NCBI GenBank assembly: GCA_002868945.1 | Contig: PKTX01000004.1 | Coordinates: 127,425 to 190,795, forward strand | DNA length: 63,371 bases | Direction of reading: 5' to 3' | Origin: Desulfobulbaceae bacterium | GTDB lineage: Bacteria; Desulfobacterota; Desulfobulbia; Desulfobulbales; SURF-16 | Shown here: positions 10,245 through 16,032 of the stretch, in pieces | How the letters are laid out: every line of letters starts with the position of its first letter | Numbering within the stretch: position 1 is the stretch's first letter | Notes under the pieces: generated by a model | The model's database searches: none | The model's input: only the letters and a program-made list of their open reading frames with translations | What the model was told of the DNA's origin: nothing | Program-made: the position numbers and the translations under genes

Positions 10245-12866
10245 TCAGGCCCGGCGACCCGCCTGAAAGAGCACGGCCTGCTGCTTCAAGGGATCGGTAT
10301 GGATGATCAACTCCTGTTGATCATCGACCATATCGACCAGGTGGATGACCTCCGCCATCCCTGCCCGGGCGGCCGCCTCGCCCGCCAACTGGTTGGGGCG
10401 ACCAAGAAGCAGGGCTTCGCTGAAGAGATAGCCCTGTCGCTGCGGCTCCGGATATACCCCCAGATAGACGATACCCATCTCCACTATGTCGTTGAAGAAG
10501 TGGGTCCCCAGGGAGATGTCCGGACTCAGATTCGCATGCATGGTGGCCAGCTCACAGAGCACCTTGACGTTTTTCACATCACTGCAGGCCACCGGCACCC
10601 CAAGTTCCGGCATCGTGCTGCCCCAACGGCCCGGGCCGATCAGCATGATGCCGCCTGCTGTCGGCTGCCTGACAAGCTCACCAATGAGCCGCGCCACCCC
10701 ATAGCGTTCCGTAGTGGCCAGGGCATGGTATTTTTCCGGCCTGACATAGATGACCCGGCTAATCCGGCCACTGACGGCCTCGCCGATGATTGGTCCGGCA
10801 CTCTTCAGCACAATATCCTCCGTGGCGATATGCCGGGGCGGCGGCACAGCGGCCCTGCCCTCCATGCGCACCTGAAAGGGACGACACTGCAGGAGATTGA
10901 TACGGTAGTGGTCCGGCCCGGCAAAATTGACGGCAAATTCAATATCCACCGGATAGGCATAGGCCGCGGCCAAGGTGGCGAGCATCTCGCGCATATCAGT
11001 GATAAAGGCGGTATCGCGAAAGAGTTTTTCGAAGGTAAGTACCCAGGAGAACACCTTGGTCACACCATGCCGGGCGGCGCGCTCCTCCATGGTCAGATCG
11101 CGATCGGCAAAAAGCTCCAGCGGCAGATCCGGCGCCTTGGCCACCACCTCCTCAAAGGTGGCGCTGCCCTCGGCATTACGGGCCAGATCAATGAGATCGA
11201 CCTTGTGCTGGCTATACCTGTACACCTGGTCTGTGCCCACCTCCGGTCTTTTATGGGGCGCGTTCAGGGCAACGATGCGGGTGTAGTCGTCATCGTGCCG
11301 ATCAACGGCCCGCGTGCCGAGGCCAAAGACCAGACGCAGCAGACCGGCCTGCGGATCAATATCCGGACTCCAGGCAAAGGGATTAAAGGAGTAGCCCACT
11401 CCGGCCAGGTGGGGCAGGTAGATGTCTTGGTAAAAGGCCCCTGAGACGCGCTGCACCAGCAGGGCCATCTCCTCGTAACGGCTCCACAGCCCCCTGTCGG
11501 CCCGATAGGAGAGAACCTCCTGACTCATGGTGCTGGCATAGACGGTGCGCACCGCATTTTTAAACTGTTCGAGCCGCTCTTCCGGCGTGCCACGGTTGGC
11601 GCAAAAGACACTTTCATACTTGCCGGAAAAGGCATTGCCATAGGCATCCTCCAGCAGACTGCTGGAACGGACAATGATCGGCGACTGGCCGAAATAGTTG
11701 AGCATCTCCCGAAACTGCTCCACCGTATCGCGCTGAAACTTACCGGCCAGCAGTTTTTTGCGGATGGCGGCTGCCGCTTTCAGGGGCTCGGCAGCACTCT
11801 TCATTTTATAGCGCTCCCACCAACACTTGTTGTTGATGACAAAGGAGTAAAAGACATCAGAGCCGATAAAAAACGAATCGTGGGTCTCCAGCAGATCCTG
11901 CCACTTATCATCCGTCTTGTTGAGAATGGCACGGGCCAGCAGCATGCCGGTGGCCTTACCGCCGATCAGGCCGGTGCCCACCATACGCTTGCCGATGGCC
12001 ACCAGGTCGCACAGATCAAAATAGCGTTCACAGAGGCGGGCAAGCCGGCTGTCGCGGCTGACGACCATCTTGACCATCTTGCCGAGAAAGGCGCGCTCCC
12101 CGGCGATAGAGCCTTCGCGGCGCCCGGCATCGCAAGCCTGCTGGGCCTCGCGCAGGGTGCGCGACCAGGTATCGGTGAGGGTTATCTTGCCGTCAAGCCA
12201 GGGCTGCGGCGTGGTGGCAAGAATCTCCGAGATTATCATGCTGCTGGTCACCGGCCTAAAGCAGTCACCCTGCCTGGCATGGAGCATATACATGGTGGGA
12301 GTATGCCGGCCCAGCACCTTGAGGGGCAGAATATAATCGCATCCCTTGCTGCGATAGAGATCAAGCACCACCTGGGCGGTGGCATGGATCGTCTTTACCG
12401 ACAAGGGGGTATGGGTGTTGCGCAGCAGGGAAAAGTAGGCCACCGTGTCGGCGGCATAGAGATAGGGACAGGCCAGCTTGAAAAAATTGCCAAGCATGCG
12501 GTCACTGTACCAGTCCACGGCCAGCTCGGAGAGACAGTCAAAGACATAGCAGGCCCCCTTGCCGCAGGCATTTATGACATCAAGGATACGGGTGATGAAC
12601 TGCTCAAAGCCGGCCCGCGGTTCCAGGACATGGGTTTCAGCAGCCCAAGACTCCTCCACCAGGGGAGGATGCCGGGCAAAACGGAAGTAAACCAGTTTTT
12701 TGCCGTCCTGTCGGGCCCTCCCACAGAAGGCTCGAACAAAGGGCACCTGGTGCAGGGCGTCATCCACCTGCCAGACAACATTATCGCCGGCCAGCACCCC
12801 TTGTAGAACATGGTCCAGGGAGTCGATTCCGGAACCAAAGGAAGGCTTCGGGGATAAGTGCGCCAT
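10245..12866 (-). CDS. RecA/KaiC-like plus PEP/pyruvate-binding (PPDK_N) fusion protein
   Basis: 873 aa. The first 230 residues look like a KaiC/RecA-type ATPase (FGSGIDSLDHVLQGVLAGDN at the start, ACYVFDCLSEL as a Walker B-like strand), but the GKT of Walker A is missing. From about residue 310 a PPDK_N domain follows, with features such as GGKATGMLLAR, SPIIVRSSSLLED and FSGKYESVF. The TSHAAI phosphohistidine motif and the PEP-binding barrel of PEP synthase/PPDK are absent, so the full dikinase reaction is unlikely. ATG 12866 has GGAGAAG ahead; an in-frame start 11 codons upstream does not. It lies 106 bases after gdhA and may belong to the same transcript. Confidence 0.75.
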   Translation of the reverse strand: MAHLSPKPSFGSGIDSLDHVLQGVLAGDNVVWQVDDALHQVPFVRAFCGRARQDGKKLVYFRFARHPPLVEESWAAETHVLEPRAGFEQFITRILDVINACGKGACYVFDCLSELAVDWYSDRMLGNFFKLACPYLYAADTVAYFSLLRNTHTPLSVKTIHATAQVVLDLYRSKGCDYILPLKVLGRHTPTMYMLHARQGDCFRPVTSSMIISEILATTPQPWLDGKITLTDTWSRTLREAQQACDAGRREGSIAGERAFLGKMVKMVVSRDSRLARLCERYFDLCDLVAIGKRMVGTGLIGGKATGMLLARAILNKTDDKWQDLLETHDSFFIGSDVFYSFVINNKCWWERYKMKSAAEPLKAAAAIRKKLLAGKFQRDTVEQFREMLNYFGQSPIIVRSSSLLEDAYGNAFSGKYESVFCANRGTPEERLEQFKNAVRTVYASTMSQEVLSYRADRGLWSRYEEMALLVQRVSGAFYQDIYLPHLAGVGYSFNPFAWSPDIDPQAGLLRLVFGLGTRAVDRHDDDYTRIVALNAPHKRPEVGTDQVYRYSQHKVDLIDLARNAEGSATFEEVVAKAPDLPLELFADRDLTMEERAARHGVTKVFSWVLTFEKLFRDTAFITDMREMLATLAAAYAYPVDIEFAVNFAGPDHYRINLLQCRPFQVRMEGRAAVPPPRHIATEDIVLKSAGPIIGEAVSGRISRVIYVRPEKYHALATTERYGVARLIGELVRQPTAGGIMLIGPGRWGSTMPELGVPVACSDVKNVKVLCELATMHANLSPDISLGTHFFNDIVEMGIVYLGVYPEPQRQGYLFSEALLLGRPNQLAGEAAARAGMAEVIHLVDMVDDQQELIIHTDPLKQQAVLFQAGRRA

Positions 12867-12913
12867 ATTCTTCTCCGTTGCAAAGGGGGACAGCGGCATG
12901 ACGGCTCATGATG

Positions 12914-12972: not shown

Positions 12973-14313
12973 TCAGACCACGCCCTGATCCATCATGGCA
13001 TCCGCCACCTTGACGAAGCCGGCAATGTTGGCGCCGTTCACATAATCAACATAACCATCCTCCTGCTTGCCGTAAGCAACGCAGGCCTCATGGATATTAA
13101 CCTTAATCTGACGCAGCTTTTCGTCGACCTCCTCACGGGCCCAGGCGGTCCTGATGCTGTTTTGGCTCATCTCCAGGCCCGAGGTGGAGACACCACCGGC
13201 ATTGGCCGCCTTGCCGGGCGCATAGAGAATCTTGGCCTTCTGGAAGATCTTCACCGCCTCGGGAACAGTGGGCATATTGGCCCCTTCACCGATGGCATAG
13301 CAGCCATTCTTAACCAGGGTCTGGGCGTCGTTCTCATAAATTTCATTCTGGGTGGCACTGGGAAAGGCGATGTCACAGGGGACCTCCCACGGCTTCTTGC
13401 CCTCAAAATAGGTGCAGCCCTCAAGCTTCTCGGCACACTCCTTGATACGGCCGCGCCGGACATTTTTCAGCTCGAAGACAAACTGCAGGTCCTCGCTGGT
13501 CAGCCCCGTTTCCTTGTAGATATAGCCGCCGGAGTCGGACAGGGTGACAACCGTGGCACCCAGCTCAAGCAATTTTTCAGTGGTATACTGGGCGACGTTG
13601 CCGGAACCGGACACGGTGCACACCTTGCCCTCAAAGCCCTCCCCCCTGGTCTTGAGCATCTCTTGAACAAAATAGACACAGCCATAACCGGTGGCTTCGG
13701 GCCGGATCAGGCTGCCGCCCCAATTGACACCCTTACCGGTGAGAACACCGGTGAATTCATTCTTGAGACGCTTGTACTGGCCGAAAAGAAAACCGATCTC
13801 CCTGGAGCCGACGCCGATATCACCAGCCGGTACGTCGGTATTCTCACCGATATGGCGGAAAAGCTCGGTCATGAAACTCTGACAGAACTTCATCACCTCC
13901 GTGTCCGATTTACCCTTGGGATCAAAGTCGGAACCACCCTTACCGCCGCCCAGAGGCAGGGTGGTCAGGCTGTTCTTGAAGACCTGCTCAAAGGCGAGAA
14001 ACTTGAGAATACCCAGGTTGACACTGGGATGAAAGCGCAGTCCGCCCTTGTAGGGACCGATGGCGCTGTTCATCTCAACCCGGTAGCCCGAGTTGATCTG
14101 CACCTCCTGGTTGTCGTCGAGCCACGGCACCCTGAAGATGAGCACGCGCTCCGGCATGACCATCCTCTCCAGAATTTTCGCCTTGGCATATCGGGGATTC
14201 TTCTCAAGGAAAGGCAAAATAGACTCCGCAACCTCCTGAACCGCCTGATGAAACTCCAGCTCACCCGGATTCTTGCGAATAACATCTTCCATAAATTCCT
14301 GCACACTTTTCAT
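12973..14313 (-). CDS. gdhA: NADP-type glutamate dehydrogenase
   Basis: 446 aa, the usual length of hexameric bacterial GDH. The motif PLGGGKGGSDFDPKGKSD holds the catalytic-site lysine, and a Rossmann motif appears as VSGSGNVAQY. It makes glutamate from 2-oxoglutarate and ammonium. ATG 14313 is chosen because GAGGAAG precedes it and it matches GDH N-termini; the frame extends ten codons further without a site. It is divergent from nrpR, whose product senses 2-oxoglutarate in characterised members, and dyads at 14601-14911 suggest direct repression. The PPDK_N gene follows. Confidence 0.93.
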   Translation of the reverse strand: MKSVQEFMEDVIRKNPGELEFHQAVQEVAESILPFLEKNPRYAKAKILERMVMPERVLIFRVPWLDDNQEVQINSGYRVEMNSAIGPYKGGLRFHPSVNLGILKFLAFEQVFKNSLTTLPLGGGKGGSDFDPKGKSDTEVMKFCQSFMTELFRHIGENTDVPAGDIGVGSREIGFLFGQYKRLKNEFTGVLTGKGVNWGGSLIRPEATGYGCVYFVQEMLKTRGEGFEGKVCTVSGSGNVAQYTTEKLLELGATVVTLSDSGGYIYKETGLTSEDLQFVFELKNVRRGRIKECAEKLEGCTYFEGKKPWEVPCDIAFPSATQNEIYENDAQTLVKNGCYAIGEGANMPTVPEAVKIFQKAKILYAPGKAANAGGVSTSGLEMSQNSIRTAWAREEVDEKLRQIKVNIHEACVAYGKQEDGYVDYVNGANIAGFVKVADAMMDQGVV

Positions 14314-14459
14314 CTGTTTCTTCCTCTTCGCGTAGTTTTTCAATCACCCCCCACCTGCAACAACAAGAGGCGAACAAGGGGGGGCGCACATTGCCGTTCC
14401 CCAGGGAGCGGGGCGCATGATGCGGCAACGGTATGCCGCTCAAGGCGCCACAGCATTAG

Positions 14460-14594
14460 GGCGCCGGCGAGCTGGTCGGAGACAACAATCACGCCACCTG
14501 CTTGGCCGTTGCCGCAATGCTGCTGCGCCTCGACAAAGCCAAACCTCTGCGCCGACTGCCAACAGCGGCCGTGTCACCCTCCAGGAGCACGTAA
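14460..14594 (+). pseudogene. Possible gene remnant between gdhA and nrpR
   Basis: A stretch without start or upstream frame reads GAGELVGDNNHATCLAVAAM then LLRLDKAKPL in the only open plus frame, closed by TAG before 14460 and TAA at 14592-14594. The composition looks protein-like, but I cannot name a family. It may simply be leader sequence. Confidence 0.25.
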
Positions 14595-14600
14595 AAGCCA

Positions 14601-14644
14601 CAAGGCCAGCTTATCGGCAACAAGTTGCCGATAAGCTGGCCTTG
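14601..14644. promoter_or_regulatory. Perfect 21-bp inverted repeat, candidate NrpR operator at gdhA
   Basis: Two 21-bp arms, perfect reverse complements, surround a 2-base AA centre. The inner core is TCGGC and GCCGA separated by 8 bases. On the minus strand it begins right after a weak -10-like TAAGAC, where it would cover the gdhA start site and early leader and block transcription when bound. Confidence 0.6.
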
Positions 14645-14673
14645 GTCTTAGTACAAAACAAGGCAGACTTCAA
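14645..14673 (-). promoter_or_regulatory. Candidate gdhA promoter
   Basis: On the minus strand TTGAAG (14668-14673) and TAAGAC (14645-14650) are spaced by 17 bases. The -35 is reasonable and the -10 weak. It would give a leader of about 325 bases before ATG 14313, which is long, so another promoter nearer the gene is possible. Confidence 0.35.
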
Positions 14674-14746
14674 CCCTTAAATTGTTGGTTTTGTGGAGAT
14701 CTGCTTAAGGATACACGCTGCAAAAAACATAATGAGCAGTACTTTT

Positions 14747-14762
14747 TCGGCATTTTTGCCGG
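14747..14762. promoter_or_regulatory. Candidate NrpR dyad (TCGGC-N6-GCCGG)
   Basis: TCGGC, six A/T-rich bases, then GCCGG. The half-sites and 6-base spacing match the inner part of the 14872-14911 dyad. Archaeal NrpR operators are likewise short dyads with a 6-base spacer, although with other half-sites (GGAA/TTCC). Confidence 0.45.
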
Positions 14763-14871
14763 TGCCCGGCTCCCCTCCCCTTGGTGTACCCCGCCCAAGC
14801 CCCCGACTTTAAACACCCTGAAATCATTGACGAGTTCAAGGAGGCCTGCGCCCCTCTTTTTTTTGCCGAAC

Positions 14872-14911
14872 GCCGGGCCATTTTCGGCAAAATTGCCGAA
14901 AATGGCCCGGC
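14872..14911. promoter_or_regulatory. Perfect 19-bp inverted repeat, candidate NrpR operator at nrpR
   Basis: The arms at 14872-14890 and 14893-14911 are perfect reverse complements around an AA centre. The core is TCGGC-AAAATT-GCCGA. It lies about 75 bases upstream of the -35 element of the nrpR promoter. A further GCCGAA half-site is at 14865-14870. Confidence 0.6.
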
Positions 14912-14985
14912 AAGGCGATGGCACGACAGACGGCATGGGCGGCAACGGCTCCGCCCGCAAATATGAACGGCCGCGTCCTGGAGAG

Positions 14986-15014
14986 TTGCCAGGTCATGGC
15001 GTATTGGCTATATT
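14986..15014 (+). promoter_or_regulatory. Sigma-70-type promoter of nrpR, apparently leaderless
   Basis: TTGCCA (14986-14991), a 17-base spacer and TATATT (15009-15014). The expected start of transcription, 15020-15022, falls at the ATG at 15022, and no Shine-Dalgarno sequence precedes that ATG. Confidence 0.6.
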
Positions 15015-15021
15015 CGTGACA

Positions 15022-16032
15022 ATGAGTGACAAGACCGTAAAAAAAGAACTGACCATCCTTCGCATCCTGCAAAAGGCCGAGACCCCCCTTTCCAGCTCAA
15101 AAATCCTGGAAAGCCTGCAAGCCATGGGCCAGGAGTCCAGCGAACGCACCATCCGGCACTATTTCAAAATTCTCGATGACAAGGGCCTTACCGCCAACCT
15201 GGGCAAAAAGGGGCGCATCATCACCCCCCTGGGCCACAAAGAGCTGAGCAAGGCCCGCATCTTTGACAAGGTGGGCTTCCTGCAGACCAAGATCGACCAA
15301 CTGACCTTCCGGATGAACTTTGACCTCAGCTCCCGAAGCGGCACGGTGATCCTCAACATCACCTTGATCAGCCAGGAAATCCTGGCAAGTGCCGAACCAC
15401 TGATCCGCAAGGTCTATGATGCCGGCTATTCCATGGGCAGCATGATGGCCCTCTTTGCTCCTGGTGAGCGGATGGGAGAATTCGTTATCCCGGAAGGCAT
15501 GGTCGGCTTCGGCACGGTATGCTCCATCACCCTGAACGGCGTGCTGCTCGCCCACGGCATTCCCACCCATTCGATATTCGGCGGCCTCCTTGAGCTGCGT
15601 AAGCGGCAGGCCACCCGTTTTGTCGAGATTATCAAGTATGACGGCACCAGCCTTGACCCCCTGGAAATCTTTATCCGCAGCGGCATGACCGATTATCGTG
15701 GTGCAGTCAAGGATGGCAATGGCCGCATCGGCGCCGGCTTTCGGGAGGTACCGGCAGACAGTCGGGACAAGGTTCTGGCCCTGATTAAGAAACTGGAGGA
15801 GGTGGGCCTGGGCGGCTTTCTGCTCATCGGTTGGCCCGGCCAGCCGCTTCTGGAGATTCCGGTTGCTGAGGGCAGAACCGGCATTGTGGTGATCGGCGGC
15901 CTCAACCCGGTGGCCATCCTTGAAGAATCAGGAATCAAGCTGCAATCGCGTGCCATGGCAGGCATGGTGGAGTACGGCAAACTCTTCCACTACAAGGAAA
16001 TGCAGCAACGGATCAAAAAGTTCACCGGCTGA
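15022..16032 (+). CDS. nrpR: NrpR-family transcriptional repressor (wHTH + NrpR domain)
   Basis: 336 aa. Residues 1-75 form a winged helix (ILRILQKAETPLSSSKILES, then SSERTIRHYFKILDDKGL). The rest is one NrpR regulatory domain (former DUF128; SMGSMMALFAPGERM, GLGGFLLIGWPGQPLLEIPV). In methanogens NrpR represses nitrogen-assimilation genes and is released by 2-oxoglutarate. Being divergent from gdhA supports the same role here. The ATG at 15022 begins the conserved winged helix; longer frames upstream run through the operator and lack a ribosome site. Confidence 0.85.
   Translation: MSDKTVKKELTILRILQKAETPLSSSKILESLQAMGQESSERTIRHYFKILDDKGLTANLGKKGRIITPLGHKELSKARIFDKVGFLQTKIDQLTFRMNFDLSSRSGTVILNITLISQEILASAEPLIRKVYDAGYSMGSMMALFAPGERMGEFVIPEGMVGFGTVCSITLNGVLLAHGIPTHSIFGGLLELRKRQATRFVEIIKYDGTSLDPLEIFIRSGMTDYRGAVKDGNGRIGAGFREVPADSRDKVLALIKKLEEVGLGGFLLIGWPGQPLLEIPVAEGRTGIVVIGGLNPVAILEESGIKLQSRAMAGMVEYGKLFHYKEMQQRIKKFTG

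Follow-up and report, generated by a model that had tools for sequence, protein, structure and literature searches.

The inverted repeats between gdhA and nrpR in the window (the whole 63-kb stretch of DNA that was analysed) are very probably operators of the adjacent NrpR-family regulator, which would use them to control glutamate synthesis and its own gene. That they are candidate NrpR-like operators for gdhA and nrpR had been proposed from the window alone, and comparison with other genomes supports the proposal: the predicted sites are conserved beside nrpR and absent at unlinked gdhA genes. Bacterial members of the family of NrpR, the archaeal nitrogen repressor, thereby gain a predicted, conserved DNA target, together with a predicted role in the control of glutamate formation by glutamate dehydrogenase (GDH) or a GOGAT-like enzyme.

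Genes and dyads of the gdhA–nrpR spacer

The two genes are divergent. Profile searches confirmed both of the original assignments: gdhA (12973-14343, minus strand) encodes an NADP-type glutamate dehydrogenase (Pfam ELFV_dehydrog, 6.6e-90, and ELFV_dehydrog_N; NCBIfam NF006929, 1.1e-227), probably starting at the ATG at 14313, and nrpR (15022-16032, plus strand) encodes a regulator of 336 aa. The regulator has the domain order of the NrpR family, an N-terminal winged HTH (HTH_12, residues 11-75, 4e-14) followed by a single NRD domain (NRD1_2, residues 84-321, 1.8e-79), and phmmer matched it to structure 3nek (MJ0159, archaeal NrpR-like; 9.7e-28). Judged by these matches it is a clear NrpR homologue. 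It is the one NRD protein in this genome, and its nearest named relatives come from metagenome-assembled Desulfobulbaceae, Desulfurivibrionaceae and similar bacteria. The window GDH is 80-88% identical to the products of the nrpR-linked gdhA genes in most relatives and 70% identical in one. A PPDK_N-domain protein (10245-12899) adjoins gdhA, and a similar protein, recognized by eye in translations, adjoins nrpR in distant families (L162, L164); it is possible that this protein is a third partner of the cluster.

A palindrome search of the window recovered the two long inverted repeats that had been reported, both perfect, at 14601-14644 (21-nt arms, 2-nt gap) and 14872-14911 (19-nt arms, 2-nt gap). 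They are the sole perfect palindromes with arms of at least 12 in the whole window. The longest arm was 9 in 300 Markov (dinucleotide) shuffles of the spacer and 9-11 in five shuffles of the whole window, so that arms of 21 and 19 lie far above chance expectation. The third, shorter dyad is also present, and the TCGGC...GCCGA cores, described as 6-8 bases apart, have measured gaps of 8, 6 and 6; the count of three dyads, however, had overlooked a fourth, weaker copy. All four share the unit (T)CGGCAA-Nx-TTGCC(GA), in which x is exactly 2 or 4. Numbered outward from nrpR, the N2-class sites are O1 (TCGGCAAAATTGCCGA, 14884-14899; 14/14 positions matching), which forms the core of the 14872-14911 palindrome, and O2 (TCGGCATTTTTGCCGG, 14747-14762; 12/14), the short dyad. 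The N4-class sites are O3 (TCGGCAACAAGTTGCCGA, 14614-14631; 14/14), the core of the 14601-14644 palindrome, and the weaker O4 (GCGGCAACGGTATGCCGC, 14422-14439; 11/14, GGCA/TGCC intact), which lies within the gdhA leader.

The sole sigma-70-like promoter returned by the promoter scan in 14300-15060 is that of nrpR (TTGCCA-N17-TATATT, 14986-15014, plus strand). Its -10 element ends 7 nt before the ATG, a distance that is alike in many relatives, so the nrpR mRNA is probably leaderless. The candidate gdhA promoter (14648-14673, minus strand), made up of TTGAAG (14673-14668) and TACTAA (14653-14648), lies just upstream of O3. It aligns with a conserved TTGAAA...TATxxT-like block (-10 TAC/TTAT or TATxxT-like) that precedes O3 in the gdhA/gltB direction in nearly all relatives (20+); the window version is the weakest of the set and was missed by the scan. 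In the relatives O3 starts 0-12 bp after the predicted -10. The earlier remark that this dyad begins right after a candidate gdhA -10 thus extends to the relatives, with the proviso that the window hexamers are weak. On the other side, most relatives have one N2 site just upstream of the nrpR -35 and a second further up. O1 lies 122 bp from the nrpR start in the window, about 80 bp further than in relatives (42-63 bp); across the loci compared, the first N2 site usually ends 37-63 bp from that start.

As RNA, both long palindromes would fold very stably (-38.2 kcal/mol, z -9.9 for O3; -38.3 kcal/mol, z -7.3 for O1). Since the O3 palindrome starts right after the candidate -10, its hairpin would open the gdhA transcript, and the promoter scan gave one weak terminator-like prediction on the minus strand. 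The palindromes might accordingly be mainly RNA hairpins (an attenuator, a terminator or a 5' stabilizer of the gdhA mRNA), their likeness to operators being secondary. We consider this very improbable: a proper U-tract is missing after the palindrome, the relatives have O1 and O2 upstream of both promoters, and what is conserved is a 16-18 bp core with fixed spacing, the long arm being missing in most relatives.

The same comparison bears on the view that the dyads as a whole are operators. The 16-18 bp core is kept in relatives, but the 21- and 19-nt arms, longer than any operator core, appear to be local elaborations around it. The two long dyads of the window have different outer arms, and spacer comparison found no counterpart in relatives for the outer arm sequence of the O3 palindrome. 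Three other loci have arms of 18 (L018), 15 (L028) and 14 (L029) around different sites; their outer sequences are unrelated, which suggests that palindrome extension has occurred repeatedly in this group. The long arms of O3 may be functional or may be a by-product of palindrome growth.

Conservation of the sites beside nrpR

We compared 26 Desulfobulbales nrpR loci, the window and 25 further ones, which are related and hence not fully independent. A site was accepted with at least 11/14 core positions matching and both GGCA/TGCC halves intact. The 12.8 kb upstream of the 26 nrpR genes contain 46 N2 and 23 N4 sites, against 5 N2 and 3 N4 sites in 277 kb of flanking DNA from the same loci, an enrichment of about 200-fold for the N2 class. 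Spacings of 0, 1, 3, 5 and 6 gave no sites upstream of these genes. Sites are present at all 26 loci, and in nearly all of them the order outward from nrpR is O1(N2)-O2(N2)-O3(N4), often with another N4. This extra N4 site, found downstream of O3 in about half of the relatives, usually lies at a distance of about 100-112 bp (192 bp in the window). The middle N2 site is kept in nearly all loci and the nrpR-proximal one is also conserved, the two being separated by 72-78 or roughly 123-146 bp. Outside the sites the spacers vary widely among relatives, and it is against this altered background that the sites persist.

Across the phylum, NRD proteins were found in 81/395 sampled genomes, a fifth. 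Sites were scored within 450 bp upstream of nrpR, and glutamate-synthase-like partners were recognized by the gltB FMN domain (PF01645). All 38 divergent nrpR loci have a site, whether the partner is gdhA-type (17/17), glutamate-synthase-like (19/19) or glnA (2/2), as do all 15 operons in which nrpR comes first (14/14 followed by gdhA, 1/1 by a gltB-like gene). Of 1514 random stretches of 450 bp taken from these loci, 125 (8%) have one. By contrast, none of 24 gdhA genes unlinked to nrpR has a site (one of them with just 173 bp of upstream sequence). The partner of nrpR is a glutamate-synthase-like gene in many genomes and glnA, followed by gdhA, in two (L022, L025), and sites are present there too; they therefore track nrpR rather than gdhA. 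Comparison of nrpR–gdhA spacers from relatives had been suggested as a check on the operators. The dyads recur at 26/26 Desulfobulbales loci and in further families of this phylum, which removes the objection that they might not be conserved.

The two spacing classes are strictly arranged. Wherever a divergent locus has both classes (27/27), its N2 sites all lie closer to nrpR than any of its N4 sites. In other families, operons headed by nrpR have N4 only, directly behind the -10 of a TTGACA promoter. A change of 2 bp would moreover rotate the half-sites by about 70 degrees. One could read this split as two proteins at work, with NrpR confined to the N4 sites and the N2 sites beside nrpR bound by another regulator of similar half-site. 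We regard that as distinctly unlikely. The two classes share identical half-sites (CGGCAA/TTGCCG), always in the spacer of nrpR, the enrichment given above is that of the N2 class itself, and a non-exhaustive search found no second regulator gene accompanying the loci.

When the operon order is gdhA-nrpR, with nrpR second, 4/8 loci have a site, the matches lying inside the gdhA coding sequence. In operons of this order whose NrpR copy is 42-45% identical to that of the window, neither the motif nor an obvious shared palindrome was found upstream of gdhA. This gdhA-linked copy (L249-L255) may read another sequence, given that its operon lacks an upstream GGCAA operator. Several of the same genomes encode another NrpR as well, its gene paired divergently with a gltB-like one. 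In Spirochaetes (L042-L045; L044:2108-6008) an nrpR-like gene is the last in a histidine-utilization-like operon with urocanase-, ftcD- and hutI-like genes, with a glutamate synthase gene close by in L044. From its gene content this operon appears to be another glutamate-forming context for a bacterial NrpR. No motif was found within 450 bp upstream of the Spirochaete nrpR genes, as might be expected from their position inside the operon.

Extent of the regulon

The suggestion that the motif would recur before glnA, amtB and nif was not borne out. Across nine genomes with nrpR, nothing comparable was found upstream of amt (18 genes), nifH (5 genes) or glnA-type genes outside the nrpR cluster; sites at glnA occur solely where it is divergent from nrpR. 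The operators thus lack the distribution of a global nitrogen regulon, and the regulator looks local.

A sigma-54/NtrC-controlled gdhA promoter, with the dyads as NtrC sites, has precedent, since NtrC control of gdhA has been described in deltaproteobacteria (PMC5343134) and GDH is RpoN-dependent in Geobacter (PMC2725144). The target gene and the broad physiology are indeed the same. However, the window spacer has no -24/-12 element (TGGCAC-N5-TTGC), and only scattered weak matches were seen in a few of the 25 relatives. The motif is unrelated, the adjacent regulator belongs to another family, and the dyads are missing from the promoters of amtB, nifH and unlinked glnA, at which one would expect NtrC sites. 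We give this explanation hardly any credence.

Scanning the genome for the core did not define a regulon, because matches in coding sequence swamped it. GGCAA/TTGCC palindromes are common inside genes here, with 62 places at N2-N4 and 138 for N2 with two mismatches. Among the matches listed (50 of 62) for exact GGCAA-N2/4-TTGCC elsewhere, those inspected lie nearly all in long coding frames, for example rplC (ORF length being a crude guide to coding), and one falls in a repeat region between genes. This abundance would be compatible with a dispersed REP-like repeat or with chance palindromes at the gdhA–nrpR spacer. Conservation solely at nrpR, the position of the sites and the unlike outer arms of the two window dyads rule this out for practical purposes. 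Elsewhere in the same genome (L051:1200-1530, contig C10), repeated segments similar to CCGCGTCGCTTTGCTCCTCGCAGTGACGG form an intergenic cluster that does look like a dispersed repeat.

Proposed mechanism and related systems

From the family of the protein, the exact spacings of the sites, their positions relative to the predicted promoters and their conserved association with nrpR and a gene for glutamate formation, we infer that an NrpR dimer binds the dyads and recognizes GGCAA...TTGCC as an inverted repeat. On the gdhA side, where the half-sites are 4 bp apart, O3 would lie directly downstream of the -10 and over the transcription start, so that NrpR, once bound, should prevent transcription of gdhA. 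Towards nrpR, where the half-sites are 2 bp apart, O1 and O2 would set the level of NrpR itself, perhaps with loops joining the sites. If the analogy with the archaeal protein holds, the signal would be 2-oxoglutarate, which is also a substrate of GDH. The direction of the gdhA response is uncertain. In a Geomonas, gdhA was reported not to be induced under nitrogen fixation (PMC10746287), so derepression by 2-oxoglutarate in the archaeal manner may not hold. Two spacing classes for a single protein would be unusual. Speculatively, the classes could be two operator grammars, alike in their half-sites and exactly 2 bp different in spacing, of which one serves the enzyme promoter and the other the nrpR side. 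A ligand that changes the distance between the two DNA-binding heads would then shift NrpR between classes and flip gdhA and nrpR in opposite directions. We think this elaboration unlikely, if somewhat less so than a second regulator. The two-spacing rule itself could show how one regulator discriminates between two targets.

Divergent control of glutamate synthesis by a local regulator is known from Bacillus subtilis, where GltC and gltAB likewise share a spacer with several dyads. GltC differs in being a LysR-type activator (PMC6794564), of unrelated sequence and with other operators. For bacteria, NrpR homologues have been noted merely as present in 'certain Bacteria' (PMC2723118), and we found no described bacterial NrpR operator in the literature searched. 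The comparisons made here strongly support a conserved set of predicted bacterial NrpR operators, novel for its half-site, for its pair of spacings and for targets that are local and centred on glutamate.

Archaeal NrpR (Methanococcus maripaludis) binds GGAA-N6-TTCC (PMC2723118, PMC9765008), is released by 2-oxoglutarate (PMC2723118, PMC11957540) and controls nif, glnK-amtB, glnA and molybdate transport (PMC2723118). The window protein is homologous, with a winged HTH and an NRD domain, and its predicted targets also belong to nitrogen assimilation. As for the archaeal operator, the site lies over or near a promoter, the N4 class abutting the predicted -10 in Desulfobulbales gdhA/gltB and in nrpR-gdhA operons. 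It does so in a bacterial -10/+1 context without a TATA box, however, and beside nrpR itself and gdhA/gltB rather than at nifH, amtB or unlinked glnA. The window protein also differs in having one NRD domain. The original claim of archaeal-like geometry with a different half-site holds for the gdhA side, where O3 and O4 have four-base halves six apart (GGCA-N6-TGCC). It does not hold for O1 and O2, which belong to an extra class two bases shorter (GGCA-N4-TGCC). The half-site throughout the window is GGCA/TGCC rather than GGAA/TTCC. Some other bacterial families (L182, L186, L187, L257) have hybrid operators, ACGGAAAAAGGTTGCCGA / ACGGAAAACGGTTGCCGA, in which one half is of the archaeal GGAA type and the other is the bacterial TGCC.
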